A stretch of 64,000 nt of DNA. Source: Acidocella sp. (GTDB taxonomy: Bacteria; Pseudomonadota; Alphaproteobacteria; Acetobacterales; Acetobacteraceae). The position numbers were made by a program, and so were the translations under genes. The stretch covers positions 26,262 through 90,261 of the forward strand of contig JAQNCT010000003.1 of assembly GCA_029077825.1 (NCBI GenBank), given 5' to 3'. The notes beneath the pieces were generated by a model. The model saw nothing but the letters and a program-made list of their open reading frames with translations. It had not been told where the DNA came from and made no database searches. Shown here in pieces: positions 20,269-28,472 of this stretch (within the stretch, counting starts at the first letter, position 1; every line of letters starts with the position of its first letter).

Positions 20269-20540
20269 GTGAGGCCCCTATTTTGATGGGCCACCTATAG
20301 TTACGATGTGTAACAGATACATGACAAAAATATTGTTAAATTATGAAACAAAAAATTACATTGGGAATGATGCCTTGGCGTTTGAACAAAATGAAATTTA
20401 CCAACATCACATTCAATCGTGCAATTCAAATCAGACGAAACAGGTCCTCACCCATCTGGCAAACAGCGCAAATAAGTTTGAATCAGTAGTGGATCATGAG
20501 TGAAAACAGGTTCGATTTCATTATGCAGGAAGTCGGTGAG

Positions 20541-22440
<1,900 letters not shown>

Positions 22441-22479
22441 TCAAAAAAGGAGAGCCGGGTGTTGTGGTTTTGGTGAAAC

Positions 22480-22584
22480 CCCCGTCCCTCCGCCGGTATG
22501 ATCCGGATCAGGTTCAAAGGGTTTGCCGTGGTGGGTTTCCCCCTAGCGACATCTCAGTTCCTTCCGGAACACCCCTCGGTGAAG
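22480..22584 (-). promoter_or_regulatory. TPP riboswitch (THI element) upstream of thiC
   Basis: Reverse strand: ...AGGGGTGTTCCGGAAGGAACTGAGATG...AAACCCTTTGAACCTGATCCGGATCATACCGGCGGAGGGA, matching the conserved CTGAGA and ACCCtTTGAACCTGATCtGGaT core. Confidence 0.95.
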
Positions 22585-22599
22585 CCAACAGATGCCATT

Positions 22600-22806
22600 G
22601 AGTGGGATTTGTCAAACGACGAATGGGTTGGGCGGGTGAAGATGGCGGGCGTACGCATCAACAAGGATGGTGCTGTCTATGGGTTGCAGGGACTGTTCGC
22701 GGCTGGCGAGGCGTCGTGCCGTCATTTGCGGGGCATGTTGCGCAGAAAGATGGCATTCGGTGCCGTTCACCACCTGCTGCCGAAATTTCTAAAACCCGCA
22801 GAGTGA
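22600..22806 (+). pseudogene. Possible remnant of a FAD-binding (FrdA/SdhA-type) oxidoreductase
   Basis: KMAGVRINKDGAVYGLQGLFAAGEASC resembles MgGvRin..G...pGLyAAGEa of FAD_binding_2 proteins; no N-terminal domain. Confidence 0.4.
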
Positions 22807-22824
22807 TCCGCCGCTCGTCCGGTA

Positions 22825-22853
22825 AAACCGCCCGAGGGGTTGCAGGCGGTGGT
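22825..22853 (-). terminator. Possible terminator at the end of the radical SAM operon
   Basis: Reverse strand accgcctgcaacccctcgggcggtttta: stem and short T run just past the rSAM3 stop. Confidence 0.45.
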
Positions 22854-22855
22854 TT

Positions 22856-23818
22856 TTATAACCCGGTTTCTGCCATATCCCAGGTTTTATTGGCGTGCTT
22901 GAGCAAATCAGGATTGCTTTGGCAATTGACCACGAAGTCCCGCACGGTTTGGGTACGCCAGGCGTTTTGGTAAGCTTGCCAGGCTTCGAGCAATGATTGC
23001 CGTTTCAAATCGGCGGGGGCGAAGGGCAGGGCATTCAGGAGCTTTACCTTGCCGTTAGGAACCACCAGCAACATGGCCTGAGGGGACTCCAGACGGCGCT
23101 CAAGCTCGCTCACTATATCCCAGGGATAGATCGACAGCGCGATATCTGACGGCACGGCTGCCGCACGCGCGCGTAATGATATTTCGGCTTGCTGCCATGT
23201 AGTGTCATCACAGGCCAGAGTGTCCCACGCCGCCGCGGCGCGGCCAAGCCGCATTAGCGGCCCGGTGACGAAAGCGCTGCAACCATGCTGTATCGCCAGG
23301 TCAAAAGCCGGAACAATGTCATGGATATTCAGCCGGGTCGGAACAAATACCAGTTGCGGTTTTGTGCCAAGTGCGACCAGCCGGTCGATGGCCGCTAACG
23401 CTGCCGTGAAACTGCTGCCGGGCCGGCCGCGCGCATGGGTTGCGGATGTGGCGCCATCAACCGAAATTTGCACGCAATTGACCCCCATCGCGTGCAGCCG
23501 CGCTGCCGCCGCATCATCGATCAGGCTGCCGTTGGTCTCAAGCTTAATGGCAATGCCGGCGGCTGCCAGCGCTTCAAAAATATCCCAGCAATGGGCCACC
23601 GCCAGCGGTTCACCACCGCCGAATGCGACGTAAGGGATACCAAGGTCAATGATTTGCCGGACAATGCCCATGGCATCATCACGCCCTAATTCGTCAGGCC
23701 AAGCATGGCCGGGGCCGGATTCCTCGCAACACGCCAAACAACGGGCTTCACACCCGTTGGTTAGCTGCCAAGCGAGGAACAACGGCGATCGATAGGAGTC
23801 AAACGACCGCCCAGACAT
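22856..23818 (-). CDS. Radical SAM protein 3 of the putative RiPP cluster (no Cys-rich SPASM)
   Basis: CEARCLACCEESGPGHA (CX3CX2C), FGGGEPLAV, KLETNGSLID, VPNGKVKLLNALPFAPADLKRQSLLEAW. Confidence 0.9.
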   Translation of the reverse strand: MSGRSFDSYRSPLFLAWQLTNGCEARCLACCEESGPGHAWPDELGRDDAMGIVRQIIDLGIPYVAFGGGEPLAVAHCWDIFEALAAAGIAIKLETNGSLIDDAAAARLHAMGVNCVQISVDGATSATHARGRPGSSFTAALAAIDRLVALGTKPQLVFVPTRLNIHDIVPAFDLAIQHGCSAFVTGPLMRLGRAAAAWDTLACDDTTWQQAEISLRARAAAVPSDIALSIYPWDIVSELERRLESPQAMLLVVPNGKVKLLNALPFAPADLKRQSLLEAWQAYQNAWRTQTVRDFVVNCQSNPDLLKHANKTWDMAETGL

Positions 23819-23835
23819 AGCTAGTTCAGACGATA

Positions 23836-23994
23836 CTATGTGAAACGAATGTAGGGCTGCGCCATGACCTGTTCAGACACATCTTCCAGCAGCGGGGTTT
23901 CCAACATCGGCGACTTTGCCGGCTGTGTCTTGTTTTCCAGTAGGTCTTCAGTCTTTTTTGTTTCGCCAGGAATCTTCGAAATCATGTCGGGCAT
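23836..23994 (-). CDS. Putative precursor peptide (52 aa) of the radical SAM cluster, absent from the supplied ORF track
   Basis: MPDMISKIPGETKKTEDLLENKTQPAKSPMLETPLLEDVSEQVMAQPYIRFT*; GGAGAG Shine-Dalgarno about 10 nt upstream of ATG; overlaps rSAM2 stop by 13 nt and lies 17 nt before rSAM3; Cys-free charged leader with hydrophobic/Tyr C-terminus. Confidence 0.75.
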   Translation of the reverse strand: MPDMISKIPGETKKTEDLLENKTQPAKSPMLETPLLEDVSEQVMAQPYIRFT

Positions 23995-24953
23995 TTTTCA
24001 AACTCTCCGCTAGAAATTAATGACAAAGCATTCGCCGCAGCATGCACGGCGCTATCAATAATCGCCCGCTCAATCGCCGCGATGACGCCGTCATCATGCC
24101 ACGCGGCGCAATAGTTTTCCCAAGCTTTGGCAAAACTTATACGCCGAAGATCAGCACAAATACAACCAATTGCTGCGACGACTTTGACCATGCCGTTCGG
24201 TAGGATCAGCATGGTGGCCGGGGGCGTTGCAAGGCTCAATTGCAGCCCGGCCTCCACTGTGAACGGATTGTAACAAATTTCAAGTGAATCAGCCAAAAGC
24301 GGGGCCTGGATATCCAGCATTTGTTTGAAATTTTGGTACGCCGCTGGGGTGGCGGCGATTTTTGGCCATAGCTTGGCGGCGCGGCCGATGTTCATCAGCA
24401 TGCCGGTGTTACAGCGAAAGGCCCCAAGGGCGCGCGCCTGCGCGATAACGGCCTTTGCCTCGTGCAGGTTCAGCCGGGTCGGGGCGAAAGTAACCTCAAG
24501 CGGCAGGCCGGCTGCGCGCACGGCACGGCACGCGGCATGCGCCTTGGCGAGCGACGCACCGGGACGTTGGCGTTCATAGGTATTCTGCGTATCGCCATCG
24601 AGGCTGATCTGCACCGAGCGGATCGGCAGCTTGGCCAATCGTTTCGCCACCGCGGCATCAAACAACTGTCCATTGGTCTCGATTTTAAGCTGAATCCCGG
24701 CCCGGCCCAGAAATTCCGCCACCTCAAAAAAATGCGGCATAATCAGCGGTTCGCCGCCGCAGAGCATCACATAGGGGACGCCGTTGGCCACGATGTCAGA
24801 TGCGAGGCGCATCGCCTCATCGGCGGTCAGCTCATTTGGCAATGGTTTGCCGGGGGCGGAATCCGTACAGCAATGCAAACAGGCCAGATCACAGGCGCGG
24901 GTCATCTGCCAGGAGACAAACAGCGGTGCGCGCAATGTATCGATCAGGTTCAT
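23982..24953 (-). CDS. Radical SAM protein 2 of the putative RiPP cluster
   Basis: CDLACLHCCTDSAPGK (CX3CX2C), LCGGEPLIMPHFFEVAEFL, KIETNGQLFD, LPNGMVKVVAAIGCICADLRRISFAKAW; start at ATGA overlap with the prenyltransferase stop. Confidence 0.92.
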   Translation of the reverse strand: MNLIDTLRAPLFVSWQMTRACDLACLHCCTDSAPGKPLPNELTADEAMRLASDIVANGVPYVMLCGGEPLIMPHFFEVAEFLGRAGIQLKIETNGQLFDAAVAKRLAKLPIRSVQISLDGDTQNTYERQRPGASLAKAHAACRAVRAAGLPLEVTFAPTRLNLHEAKAVIAQARALGAFRCNTGMLMNIGRAAKLWPKIAATPAAYQNFKQMLDIQAPLLADSLEICYNPFTVEAGLQLSLATPPATMLILPNGMVKVVAAIGCICADLRRISFAKAWENYCAAWHDDGVIAAIERAIIDSAVHAAANALSLISSGEFEKCPT

Positions 24954-25903
24954 TGCCGATGGATTAACCAGGCTTGTAGCGCGATCGTTACGGTGAACAC
25001 CGCCGCCGTCACCAGATAGCACGCCACAATGCGCCGGATGGCCGGAACAAACAGCCGGGGTGCGGTGAAGGTGCCGAGCGCGCTGCGTCCGCTAGAGATG
25101 AGCAACGGCAGCGCAGCCAAGGTGGCCAGGCTGAGCACCGGGAATACCCCGGCGATGACGCCCGCCGCCACCACCAGCAGGGCCAGAGCGGCAAGACCCA
25201 AATAGAGCCAGACCGCACGTTCACGGCCGACGCGAACTACCAGGTTACGTTTCCCGACCAGCCGGTCCTGATGAAAGTCCGGGATGGCATTCACCACCGC
25301 CAATGACATGATCATGAACCCCGGAACCAGCGAGGCCCAAAGTGCGCCCCAGGCAAACAGCCTGGAATGTAAGTACAGGCTGCCGAGCACCATCCAAGGG
25401 CCGTAGGAAAGGGCTATGACCGTTTCGCCCAAACCGCGATAGGCCCAGCGAATCGGCGGGGCCACATAAAATACCGCCGCCAGACCGCCCAATCCGGCGA
25501 ACGCCAGGATCGGCCAGCCAGCGCTGAGGGTGAGATAAATCCCGACACCCAAAGCTCCGGCGAAGCCCGCGATGCCCAACCAAAGCACCGCATCGGACAT
25601 CGGCGGTAAATCCTGCGGGTTGAACACCCGGTCGGTTCCCATCCGCGCGTCAAAATACTCGTTGAAGGCCTCGACTCCGACGACCGCCAGCCCGACGCCG
25701 GCGAGGCCGCTCCAGAAAATCGCGGCGTCCAGATGGCCGGTGATAAGGTAGGCCCATGCCGCACCCAGCACATAAGGCAGCAGGCCGGCGTAGAGAAAGA
25801 ACCGGTAGCGCACCAGGCTCATCACCAGGAACAGCCGGCGCAGCATGCTCGGCGCCGCCGCCGGGGTTTGCCGCATATGCGGCGGCGTTACAGATAGACC
25901 CAT
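24950..25903 (-). CDS. UbiA-superfamily prenyltransferase, MenA-like
   Basis: FNEYFDARMGTDR (first Asp-rich motif) and AIPDFHQDRLVGKRNLVVRVGRERA (second motif); multiple TM helices. Confidence 0.9.
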   Translation of the reverse strand: MGLSVTPPHMRQTPAAAPSMLRRLFLVMSLVRYRFFLYAGLLPYVLGAAWAYLITGHLDAAIFWSGLAGVGLAVVGVEAFNEYFDARMGTDRVFNPQDLPPMSDAVLWLGIAGFAGALGVGIYLTLSAGWPILAFAGLGGLAAVFYVAPPIRWAYRGLGETVIALSYGPWMVLGSLYLHSRLFAWGALWASLVPGFMIMSLAVVNAIPDFHQDRLVGKRNLVVRVGRERAVWLYLGLAALALLVVAAGVIAGVFPVLSLATLAALPLLISSGRSALGTFTAPRLFVPAIRRIVACYLVTAAVFTVTIALQAWLIHRQ

Positions 25904-26889
25904 TTGTGCAGCAATGAGGTTGTTCCAGGCTCCCGCGCCAGGGTGTCAACAAATTCAGAAACCTGCGGGTCCTGCCAGGCGCGCTGAAAATTCGCCCAGA
26001 TTTCACCTAAGCTGTCTTTGCGCAAATCGCCGCAGACAAACGGCAAGGCGTTGATCAGCTTGACCAGACCGTTGGGCAATACAATCAGCAGGGCGGCTGG
26101 ATGATGCAGCCGGTAGCGAAGCTCGTCGAGCAAGCCCATCTCATGAAAATGCACTCGCATGCGGCCATGATAAGCGGCGGTTTTTTGATGCAGCGTTTTG
26201 AAGACTTCATCATACTGCGGCTCGCTCGGCGCCAAATGCCGCCAGGCTTTAACCGCGTTGCCGGTGTACATGGTGCGCCCGGTATAAAAACTCTGGGCGC
26301 CGAGATCATAAGCCAGATCAATCGCCGTGCCGATTTCATGGGCGTTGAAGCTGGTGGGGGAATAATTGATCTCAATCGGCACGCCGGCGGTTTGCAGGTT
26401 GCGAATGCCTTCGACGACCAGATCAAAATTGCCACGCACCCGCATCCGGTTGAATGATTCGGCCGTTGCGCCATCAAGGCTCACCTGCACCGCCTTGACC
26501 CCCAGCTCCTTCAGCCGCGCACAAGCCTCCGGGGTGAGGTAATGGCCATTGGTCTCGACTTTAAGCTCAATGCCCCGGCTGCAAACATACTCAACCATTT
26601 TGAAAAAATGCGGATGGATCATCGGCTCGCCGCCCGAAAACGACAAATACGGGACGTCATACTCAACCAGTTGGCGCAGCACATCGAATGTCTGCTGTTC
26701 GCTCAGCTCGTCGGGGAAGGCTTTGCCGGGTCCGCTCTCCTCGATGCAGTGCAGGCATGCCAGATTACATTCGTTGGTGATCTGCCACGCCACATAAAGC
26801 GGGGCACGCAGGCTGCCAGAGGTGGTGGTGGCGGGCGTGGTGGCCGGGATGGCTATTGCGGGGCCTGGGGCGGTTGGCGCCTCGCTCAT
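25888..26889 (-). CDS. Radical SAM protein 1 of the putative RiPP cluster
   Basis: CNLACLHCIEESGPGKAF (CX3CX2C), FSGGEPMIHPHFFKMVEYV, KVETNGHYLT, LPNGLVKLINALPFVCGDLRKDSLGEIW. Confidence 0.93.
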   Translation of the reverse strand: MSEAPTAPGPAIAIPATTPATTTSGSLRAPLYVAWQITNECNLACLHCIEESGPGKAFPDELSEQQTFDVLRQLVEYDVPYLSFSGGEPMIHPHFFKMVEYVCSRGIELKVETNGHYLTPEACARLKELGVKAVQVSLDGATAESFNRMRVRGNFDLVVEGIRNLQTAGVPIEINYSPTSFNAHEIGTAIDLAYDLGAQSFYTGRTMYTGNAVKAWRHLAPSEPQYDEVFKTLHQKTAAYHGRMRVHFHEMGLLDELRYRLHHPAALLIVLPNGLVKLINALPFVCGDLRKDSLGEIWANFQRAWQDPQVSEFVDTLAREPGTTSLLHKWVYL

Positions 26890-27146
26890 TGCGCATCGTC
26901 CGTCAGCAGGCCTTTTTGTTGAAGCGAAACGATCAGCGCAGCAACATCCTGTTCGATTTTTCCGGTAGGATCCTGGAAACTATGCCGCAGTTTAGCGGCA
27001 ATTTGCGCACTGTCACAGCCGGGTTTGATTTCGCGTATCACCGCCGCCGCTGCCGCATTTAACGTGTAGACCTTTTCCGATTGGGTTTCGAACAAAACGC
27101 CACCGAATTTTTCCTCGCGAAATTTTACATGCTTGGCCAGTTGCAT
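26886..27146 (-). CDS. PqqD-like peptide chaperone (RRE domain)
   Basis: MQLAKHVKFREEKFGGVLFETQSEKVYTLNAAAAAVIREIKPGCDSAQIAAKL...DVAALIVSLQQKGLL is a PqqD fold pattern; ATGA overlap with rSAM1; RBS ggagagagg. Confidence 0.88.
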   Translation of the reverse strand: MQLAKHVKFREEKFGGVLFETQSEKVYTLNAAAAAVIREIKPGCDSAQIAAKLRHSFQDPTGKIEQDVAALIVSLQQKGLLTDDAQ

Positions 27147-27223
27147 AACGACCTCTCTCCTTAAAACACTGAGCAATAAGGCAGAACAACACCTTCGAAT
27201 GATGATCCAAACTTTTGTTCCAT

Positions 27224-27520
27224 CTATATTATAACGCAAACTTGCGGACGAAAGAAGAGCAAAGTCACAGCTATCAGAATTGCCAAAATCGCCAGAACTG
27301 CGATGTTCAGCCGCAATGGCAGCCCTGCATTGTCAGGGGGACGAGTGGGATTGGTCGGTGGCGTAACGTTAATCAAGGTGGCGGGGGGTGTTGCGGTCAA
27401 CGCCACGCCCAAAGTCAACGGCTTCAGGGTGGAACCAGGCGGGCGCAGCGTGAACGCGCGCAAGGCCGTTTGGCTGCCCCGCTGGCGGAGATAGCGCAGG
27501 ATGTCATCTACACGGGACAT
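27224..27520 (-). CDS. Small Pro/Thr-rich protein with one C-terminal TM helix, putative first gene of the cluster
   Basis: 98-aa ORF ending LNIAVLAILAILIAVTLLFFRPQVCVII; co-directional, about 78 bp upstream of the PqqD-like gene. Confidence 0.5.
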   Translation of the reverse strand: MSRVDDILRYLRQRGSQTALRAFTLRPPGSTLKPLTLGVALTATPPATLINVTPPTNPTRPPDNAGLPLRLNIAVLAILAILIAVTLLFFRPQVCVII

Positions 27521-27583: not shown

Positions 27584-27697
27584 CAGTAGATCATGACGTG
27601 ACAACAGTTTAATTGTTGTTACGTAGGAAGCCGGTTCATGAATGTCCAATTAACACGGATGCGAGACTGCGAATCGCCACCGCCGCTCGCGGTGATC
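27584..27697 (+). repeat. Diverged direct repeat copy 2 (acyltransferase 5' region)
   Basis: cagtagatcatgacgtgacaacag...gtaggaagccggttcatgaatgtccaa...gcgaatcgccaccgccgctcgcggtgatca aligns with 20484..20602. Confidence 0.75.
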
Positions 27698-28068
27698 AAG
27701 CGTGGCCGGATTACGTTTCTGGATGGTTTTCGCGGCTTCGGCGCTATGCATGTCATGTTCGCTCATTACGCTTTGGCTTTTTATCCGGCGGGCTTTTGGC
27801 AATTAGGTTTTTTTACGAATAGTTTCATATCATTTTGCCTGTTCTTGCTGCTTTCGGGGTATGTGCTGCATTTCGCCATCATGATTTCGTTGGGCTATGC
27901 GGTATATTTGCTGACCGCGAAATTTGGCGCAGGCATCGCCATGCTGCTGGCCTGGTTGGCTGGGCAGTGCGTGACGATGCCGGCTGCGTTGTTGTTTCAG
28001 CGTTTGTGCGATGAACCGGCAATCAGGCTGAGCAAAAAAATCGGGCGCAAAAACTCCCGGGCAAACCC
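27638..28068 (+). pseudogene. Internally deleted acyltransferase-3-like gene
   Basis: N-terminal GRITFLDGFRGFGAMHVMFAHYALAF...FCLFLLLSGYVLHFA joined directly to C-terminal-type AMLLAWLAGQCVTMPAALLFQRLCDEPAIRLSKKIG; far shorter than a full acyltransferase-3. Confidence 0.7.
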
Positions 28069-28077
28069 TCAATCGCT

Positions 28078-28363
28078 TCACAAGGATGATTTGCCGCTGC
28101 AAGAAGCGCCAAGGATAATCATAAGGCGCGGCGGCGCCAATTCACGCAGGCCGCGCTGCGCATCCAGCGTATCGACGATTGGCGCCTCGCGGCCAAAGAA
28201 AATGCCGGCGTTCTCAGCTTCCAGCGGCTTCAGCCCAGGGTGGGTTGAGCGGTCAGGGTCAGCAGTGGGGGCCATGCGAAGAACCGTGGGTCGAGCCCGG
28301 TTCCCGTACAGCGACCGCGGATGCGTTGTCGATGCTCGCATGGCTGATGAAAAGGCGAGACAC
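28078..28363 (-). pseudogene. Truncated, frameshifted TIR-nSTAND NTPase remnant
   Basis: One frame VSRLFISHASIDNASAVAVRE (TIR N-terminus), another DPDRSTHPGLKPLEAENAGIFFGREAPIVDTLDAQRGLRELAPPRLMIILGASCSGKSSL* (nSTAND start, ends at Walker A). Confidence 0.7.
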
Positions 28364-28472
28364 GGCAGGGGCTGCTCCGGCGTGAGAGAGGCGGACTTTT
28401 TGTGATACAGGTCGGCTTGGCCGATAGGGGCTGCCTATCACTTTATTTCGTAAAATCAATTTGAGTTATTGA

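Follow-up and report, generated by a model that had tools for sequence, protein, structure and literature searches.

In a 64,000-nt stretch of Acidocella sp. DNA (assembly GCA_029077825.1, contig JAQNCT010000003.1, positions 26,262 to 90,261; hereafter the window) we analysed a cluster of six minus-strand genes (22856-27146), which overlap or nearly touch and whose open reading frames (ORFs) are all open. At its upstream end lies the gene of an 86-aa PqqD-like recognition protein (26886..27146; PF05402 with 42 bits against a cut-off of 23.4), which has GGAGAG as ribosome-binding site upstream of its start and is found in all related loci with 48-95% identity. It overlaps by 4 nt with the gene of rSAM1 (25888..26889, 333 aa; PF04055, 90.6 bits), a radical S-adenosylmethionine (rSAM) protein resembling peptide maturases, which in turn shares 16 nt with the gene of a MenA-type prenyltransferase of the UbiA family (24950..25903, 317 aa; PF01040, 70.6 bits). 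Overlaps of 4 nt and 13 nt connect the next gene, rSAM2 (23982..24953; PF04055, 80 bits), with the prenyltransferase gene and with the gene of a 52-aa precursor peptide (23836..23994; core ...LLEDVSEQVMAQPYIRFT), respectively; the start of rSAM2 is most likely the ATG at 24953 (323 aa) rather than an upstream GTG (346 aa). All complete clusters encode a homologue of the peptide in this position, and a gap of 17 nt separates its gene from that of rSAM3 (22856..23818, 320 aa; PF04055, 73 bits). The genome contains a single copy of the cluster with its three rSAM genes side by side, and a search for plasmid-borne copies returned none.

An earlier sequence-only reading had described seven co-directional minus-strand genes at this place. 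Strand, order and the mostly overlapping arrangement hold, but the conserved cluster comprises six genes (PqqD, rSAM1, UbiA, rSAM2, peptide and rSAM3). The proposed seventh member, a 98-aa transmembrane ORF (27224-27520), was rejected: most of it falls outside the region of homology to the nearest relative, locus L008, it matches no Pfam family, and no locus has a credible homologue of it upstream of PqqD. As the homology to L008 (88% DNA identity) is confined to about window positions 22732-27268, with flanks lacking notable homology, and the transmembrane ORF has no credible homologue, the cluster behaves as a cassette.

A single scan of GTDB species genomes yielded 51 related loci, 44 of them long enough to judge gene order, and the order PqqD-rSAM1-UbiA-rSAM2-peptide-rSAM3 is identical in all 44. 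This, together with the strong protein-level selection on the 52-aa ORF described below, argues that the cluster is no chance arrangement; the sequence-only reading had named absence of conserved synteny as an outcome that would speak against it, and synteny is instead kept across several phyla and classes. Among the hosts are Acidocella, Acidiphilium, Rhodopila, Rhodothalassium, Rhodovibrio, several beta- and gammaproteobacterial metagenome-assembled genomes (MAGs) and many Elusimicrobia, and two complete-chromosome assemblies (CP096137 and CP019169) carry the cluster. It is rare all the same: among 386 genomes drawn from the class of the window's genome, rSAM1 was found solely in that genome. 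A minimal version with the same peptide core, consisting of peptide, PqqD, a single rSAM protein and UbiA, is present in the divergent Elusimicrobiota genome G136 (L103:5264-7866), which also has complex I and UbiE and lacks a heme-copper oxidase. One cluster-bearing MAG (L014) is labelled Bordetella parapertussis, a label that looks doubtful.

The peptide is conserved most strictly at its end. Across 47 peptides, the 22 C-terminal residues follow the pattern W-E-x-P-x-[LM]-E-[DE]-V-S-x-x-V-M-A-Q-P-Y-I-R-F-T, of which the final eight (AQPYIRFT) are invariant (47/47); in the window's own peptide a Leu replaces the leader Trp. The stretch VxAQPYIRFT-stop is encoded by 31 distinct DNA strings, and selection therefore acts on the protein. 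Compared with Klebsiella PqqA, whose sequence we take to be WKKPAFIDLRLGLEVTLYISNR, the W, the P, the Tyr-Ile and the 22-residue span stand in the same register, so that both precursors have a W-x-x-P and a Tyr at equal distance from the C-terminus. On the same presumed alignment, position 13, the cross-linked Glu of PqqA, is Met in 46 of the 47 peptides, whereas Tyr 17 is kept; the Glu-x-x-x-Tyr pair of PqqA is thus not found in the cluster peptides. Nor do they have the Val-Tyr ending of MftA, as all of them end in PYIRFT.

The three rSAM proteins each form a clade of their own across the host groups (support 100/100 for rSAM3) in a tree built without the other rSAM proteins of the genome, from which it follows that all three already existed when the cluster spread. 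In rSAM1 the CxxxCxxC motif and one further Cys (C286) are invariant in 51 of 51 sequences, and with just one additional fully conserved Cys it lacks a full SPASM ligand set. Its AlphaFold2 model (mean confidence, pLDDT, 85) is closest to SkfB and PqqE, which are also its nearest relatives by sequence. No cluster protein reaches any curated NCBIfam cut-off, those for GeoRSP, SynChlorMet, mycofactocin and pyrroloquinoline quinone (PQQ) included, so that strong matches to a characterised pathway, which would have spoken against the earlier claim of an uncharacterised system, were not seen.

Individual known systems were rejected on the same grounds. For PQQ, the best PqqE score is 82 bits (rSAM1) against a cut-off of 381 and the PqqD score 31.8 against 46; the lasso PqqD model gives 46 bits against 70. 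The cluster shares with PQQ a PqqD-like carrier and a peptide-type rSAM enzyme, but it has three rSAM proteins without the auxiliary-cluster cysteine set of PqqE, plus a prenyltransferase, and PqqB and PqqC are absent from the cluster of every locus, in a search confined to the loci. MftC of mycofactocin is the top NCBIfam match of all three rSAM proteins (105, 113 and 135 bits against an equivalog cut-off of 265), and a small peptide next to an MftB/PqqD-like protein is likewise common to both systems; unlike mycofactocin loci, the cluster contains a prenyltransferase and no MftD, MftE or MftF gene. The sequence-only reading was therefore right to set it apart from pqqABCDE and mft. It had also allowed for a catalogued system such as GeoRSP or SynChlorMet, in which rSAM proteins are likewise paired with a PqqD family chaperone, and this does not hold: GeoRSP rSAM models score 64-78 bits and the SynChlorMet models ScmE and ScmF at most 88 bits (ScmF best), in each case against a cut-off of 400. 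To our knowledge, neither definition includes a prenyltransferase or an AQPYIRFT-type peptide. A conserved precursor gene, a recognition protein and a maturase, the set by which rSAM systems for ribosomally synthesized and post-translationally modified peptides (RiPPs) are recognised, are all present. Judged from sequence, the cluster is thus a real, conserved and uncatalogued system of the RiPP type with a MenA-like prenyltransferase.

This prenyltransferase forms a clade of its own (support 100/99) within the MenA group (99/97), which contains the Escherichia coli and Rhodovibrio MenA proteins; the clade is sister to MenA (91/89) and separate from UbiA, CtaB and BchG. The curated MenA equivalog cut-offs are not reached (91.1 against 264 and 56.5 against 102 bits), and UBIAD1 is its only relative of solved structure by sequence. 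Both Asp motifs are conserved (NEYFDxxxGTDR and PDFxQDRLVGK). Biosynthesis of the menaquinone head group is commonly taken to follow one of only two routes. Like MenA of the classical and MqnP of the futalosine pathway, the cluster enzyme likely attaches a polyprenyl chain. A gene for a polyprenyl synthetase (PF00348) precedes PqqD by 117-210 nt in 20 Elusimicrobia loci. Unlike in the menaquinone pathways, the head-group enzymes MenD and MqnA/D are missing from the hosts: in 30 cluster-bearing genomes, neither MenD nor MqnA/D scores above the cut-off. The MenD matches in these genomes all fall below it (best 91.8 against 244 bits) and were taken as other thiamine pyrophosphate (TPP) enzymes.

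How the cluster relates to respiration was analysed in 121 Elusimicrobiota genomes. Seven of them contain rSAM1 and six a strong MqnA/D pair, with no overlap (two further marginal PF02621 matches were left out of the latter count); MenD occurs in two others. A heme-copper oxidase is found in 14 of the 121, namely in 6/7 genomes with the cluster, in 6/6 with Mqn and in 2/108 with neither (Fisher p = 1e-13 for cluster or Mqn versus none, a value that ignores shared ancestry). NuoD of complex I exceeds its cut-off in 24 genomes, among them all seven with the cluster and all six with Mqn. In four cluster-bearing Elusimicrobia (G019, G023, G027 and the complete genome G026) the sole other gene of the UbiA family is heme O synthase or nearest to it (for G027, 172 against 210 bits).

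The cleanest chemical case for a link between cluster and quinone is Rhodopila globiformis. Its membranes contain ubiquinone, menaquinone and rhodoquinone, with menaquinone seen by high-performance liquid chromatography (PMC9640540), and the 2.24 A structure of its reaction centre was modelled with menaquinone at QA (PMC9640540; also PMC12542754). The UbiA-family genes of this species are CtaB and BchG (both assigned by tree), UbiA, a HAD-UbiA fusion and the cluster enzyme, and we found no MenD, no MqnA and no MenA-type gene besides the latter in its genome. For Rhodovibrio, MK-10, a menaquinone, has been reported (PMC7179689). As a classical MenA is present there, MK-10 is not ascribable to the cluster and was dropped as evidence. 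Rhodothalassium presumably contains MK-10 as well, an assumption we did not use. A separate MenA-like prenyltransferase, below the curated cut-offs, is encoded in both Rhodothalassium (L101:6168-7160) and Rhodovibrio (L100:6176-7126), in the former between a NapC/NirT-type cytochrome and a COQ10-like START protein.

Outside the cluster no neighbour is generally conserved; beyond the polyprenyl synthetase, a MarR-like regulator and an enzyme of the BioF/Kbl family recur in a few loci. Subunits of fumarate reductase/succinate dehydrogenase adjoin the cluster in L008 and L014, and MtrB-type porins (MtrA/MtrB) or multiheme cytochromes do so in L025, L029 and L053. Some such respiratory modules are typically fed by low-potential quinones, which we mention as context only. 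In the window itself, the next gene downstream of the cluster is thiC (20614-22428), preceded by a TPP riboswitch (RF00059, 76 bits; 22468-22586, minus strand). A direct repeat of 114 nt (72% identity; 20500-20613 and 27598-27711) brackets cluster plus thiC and is perhaps a dispersed repeat or a trace of cassette movement. On the other side, a plus-strand ORF (27638-28405) begins like a membrane acyltransferase, stops making sense shortly afterwards and may be a broken gene.

From these observations we infer, with a rough probability of 0.6, that the product of the six genes is an aromatic redox carrier, derived from the peptide and polyprenylated, which serves as a respiratory membrane quinone. 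The substrate and the order of reactions can be proposed from the gene set as follows. PqqD would bind the W-x-x-P leader and present the peptide, and the rSAM enzymes, of the peptide type like SkfB and PqqE, would convert the AQPYIRFT core around the Tyr to a phenol that is fused or cross-linked. Host proteases encoded elsewhere might then free the head group, to which the MenA-type enzyme would add a long polyprenyl chain, in Elusimicrobia made by the adjacent synthase, and oxidation would give the quinone; UbiE, where present (Rhodopila), may methylate the ring to menaquinone or something close to it. The sequence-only reading had guessed at a multi-step, lipid-anchored, Tyr-derived product, a guess that gains from the MenA-type enzyme, the adjacent polyprenyl synthetase, the invariant Tyr in the PqqA register and the complementarity of the cluster with the known menaquinone pathways. 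More tentatively, and in our view possible rather than probable, the cluster could be a third, ribosome-dependent route to a head group of the menaquinone or demethylmenaquinone type, in which the rSAM proteins would build the naphthoquinone ring system from peptide residues before the MenA-like enzyme prenylates it. Such a route would account for the menaquinone of Rhodopila globiformis and for Elusimicrobia that respire without men or mqn genes.

Several observations weigh against a cluster-made quinone. Eleven NuoD-positive Elusimicrobiota have neither the cluster nor MqnA/MenD (G033, G041, G057, G058, G059, G066, G087, G091, G116, G126 and G141), so that another quinone source or gaps in the MAGs must exist; two of them (G091 and G126) have an oxidase, and the cluster UbiA is absent there likewise. 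Most genomes are MAGs of mostly unstated completeness, and the Elusimicrobiota counts ignore shared ancestry. The proteobacteria searched have a full-length UbiE/MenG, as does G136; the seven cluster Elusimicrobia lack it, and their product is therefore probably not ordinary menaquinone but unmethylated or different. Genes for a dedicated peptidase or redox partner do not accompany the cluster, and Rhodovibrio has, besides the cluster, a classical MenA (332.9 bits against a cut-off of 264) and the further MenA-like enzyme described above.

The alternative that survives best, though we regard it as unlikely, is a prenylated RiPP that is not a quinone, i.e. a lipopeptide prenylated on Tyr or another residue and functioning as a signal, an antibiotic or the membrane-bound cofactor of a single enzyme. 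UbiA shares an operon with peptide and maturases, and the peptide itself could therefore be the prenyl acceptor, with which the missing peptidase gene would agree; a core that stays invariant across phyla is, however, untypical of antibiotics or signals, the neighbourhood contains no conserved dedicated exporter, the link of the cluster to oxidase, to complex I and to the lack of known menaquinone pathways would be left unexplained, and UbiA is MenA-like. Slightly less probable still is that peptide, PqqD and rSAM proteins make a soluble cofactor similar to PQQ or mycofactocin, while UbiA makes an ordinary partner quinone from another precursor. The core logic of both pathways, the PqqA-like register and the fold of rSAM1 are what one would expect of such a cofactor, but UbiA is retained even in the minimal cluster with one rSAM protein, a separate source of its substrate (MenD, MqnA) is missing and no dehydrogenase is conserved beside the cluster. 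That the cluster is unrelated to quinones, the correlation reflecting a shared lineage of larger-genome Elusimicrobia plus chance in proteobacteria, draws on the phylogeny-blind counts, the MAGs and the eleven genomes without an assigned route, and is made very improbable by the mutual exclusion of cluster and Mqn (0/13 share both), the adjacent polyprenyl synthetase, the MenA-type enzyme and Rhodopila, which makes menaquinone without the known pathways.

We know of no membrane quinone made from a ribosomal peptide, and in the open-access literature we found neither a description of this cluster nor anything relevant on a RiPP-derived quinone or a third menaquinone pathway. A cultured type strain would allow a direct test of the proposed quinone. 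If it proves true, a membrane electron carrier can arise from a gene-encoded peptide, and the RiPP cofactor chemistry of PQQ and mycofactocin would be joined with the synthesis of respiratory lipids. This would account for a filled QA site in the Rhodopila reaction centre without men or mqn genes and would close a gap in the energy metabolism of Elusimicrobia. Missing men, mqn or ubi genes would then be no proof of a missing quinone.

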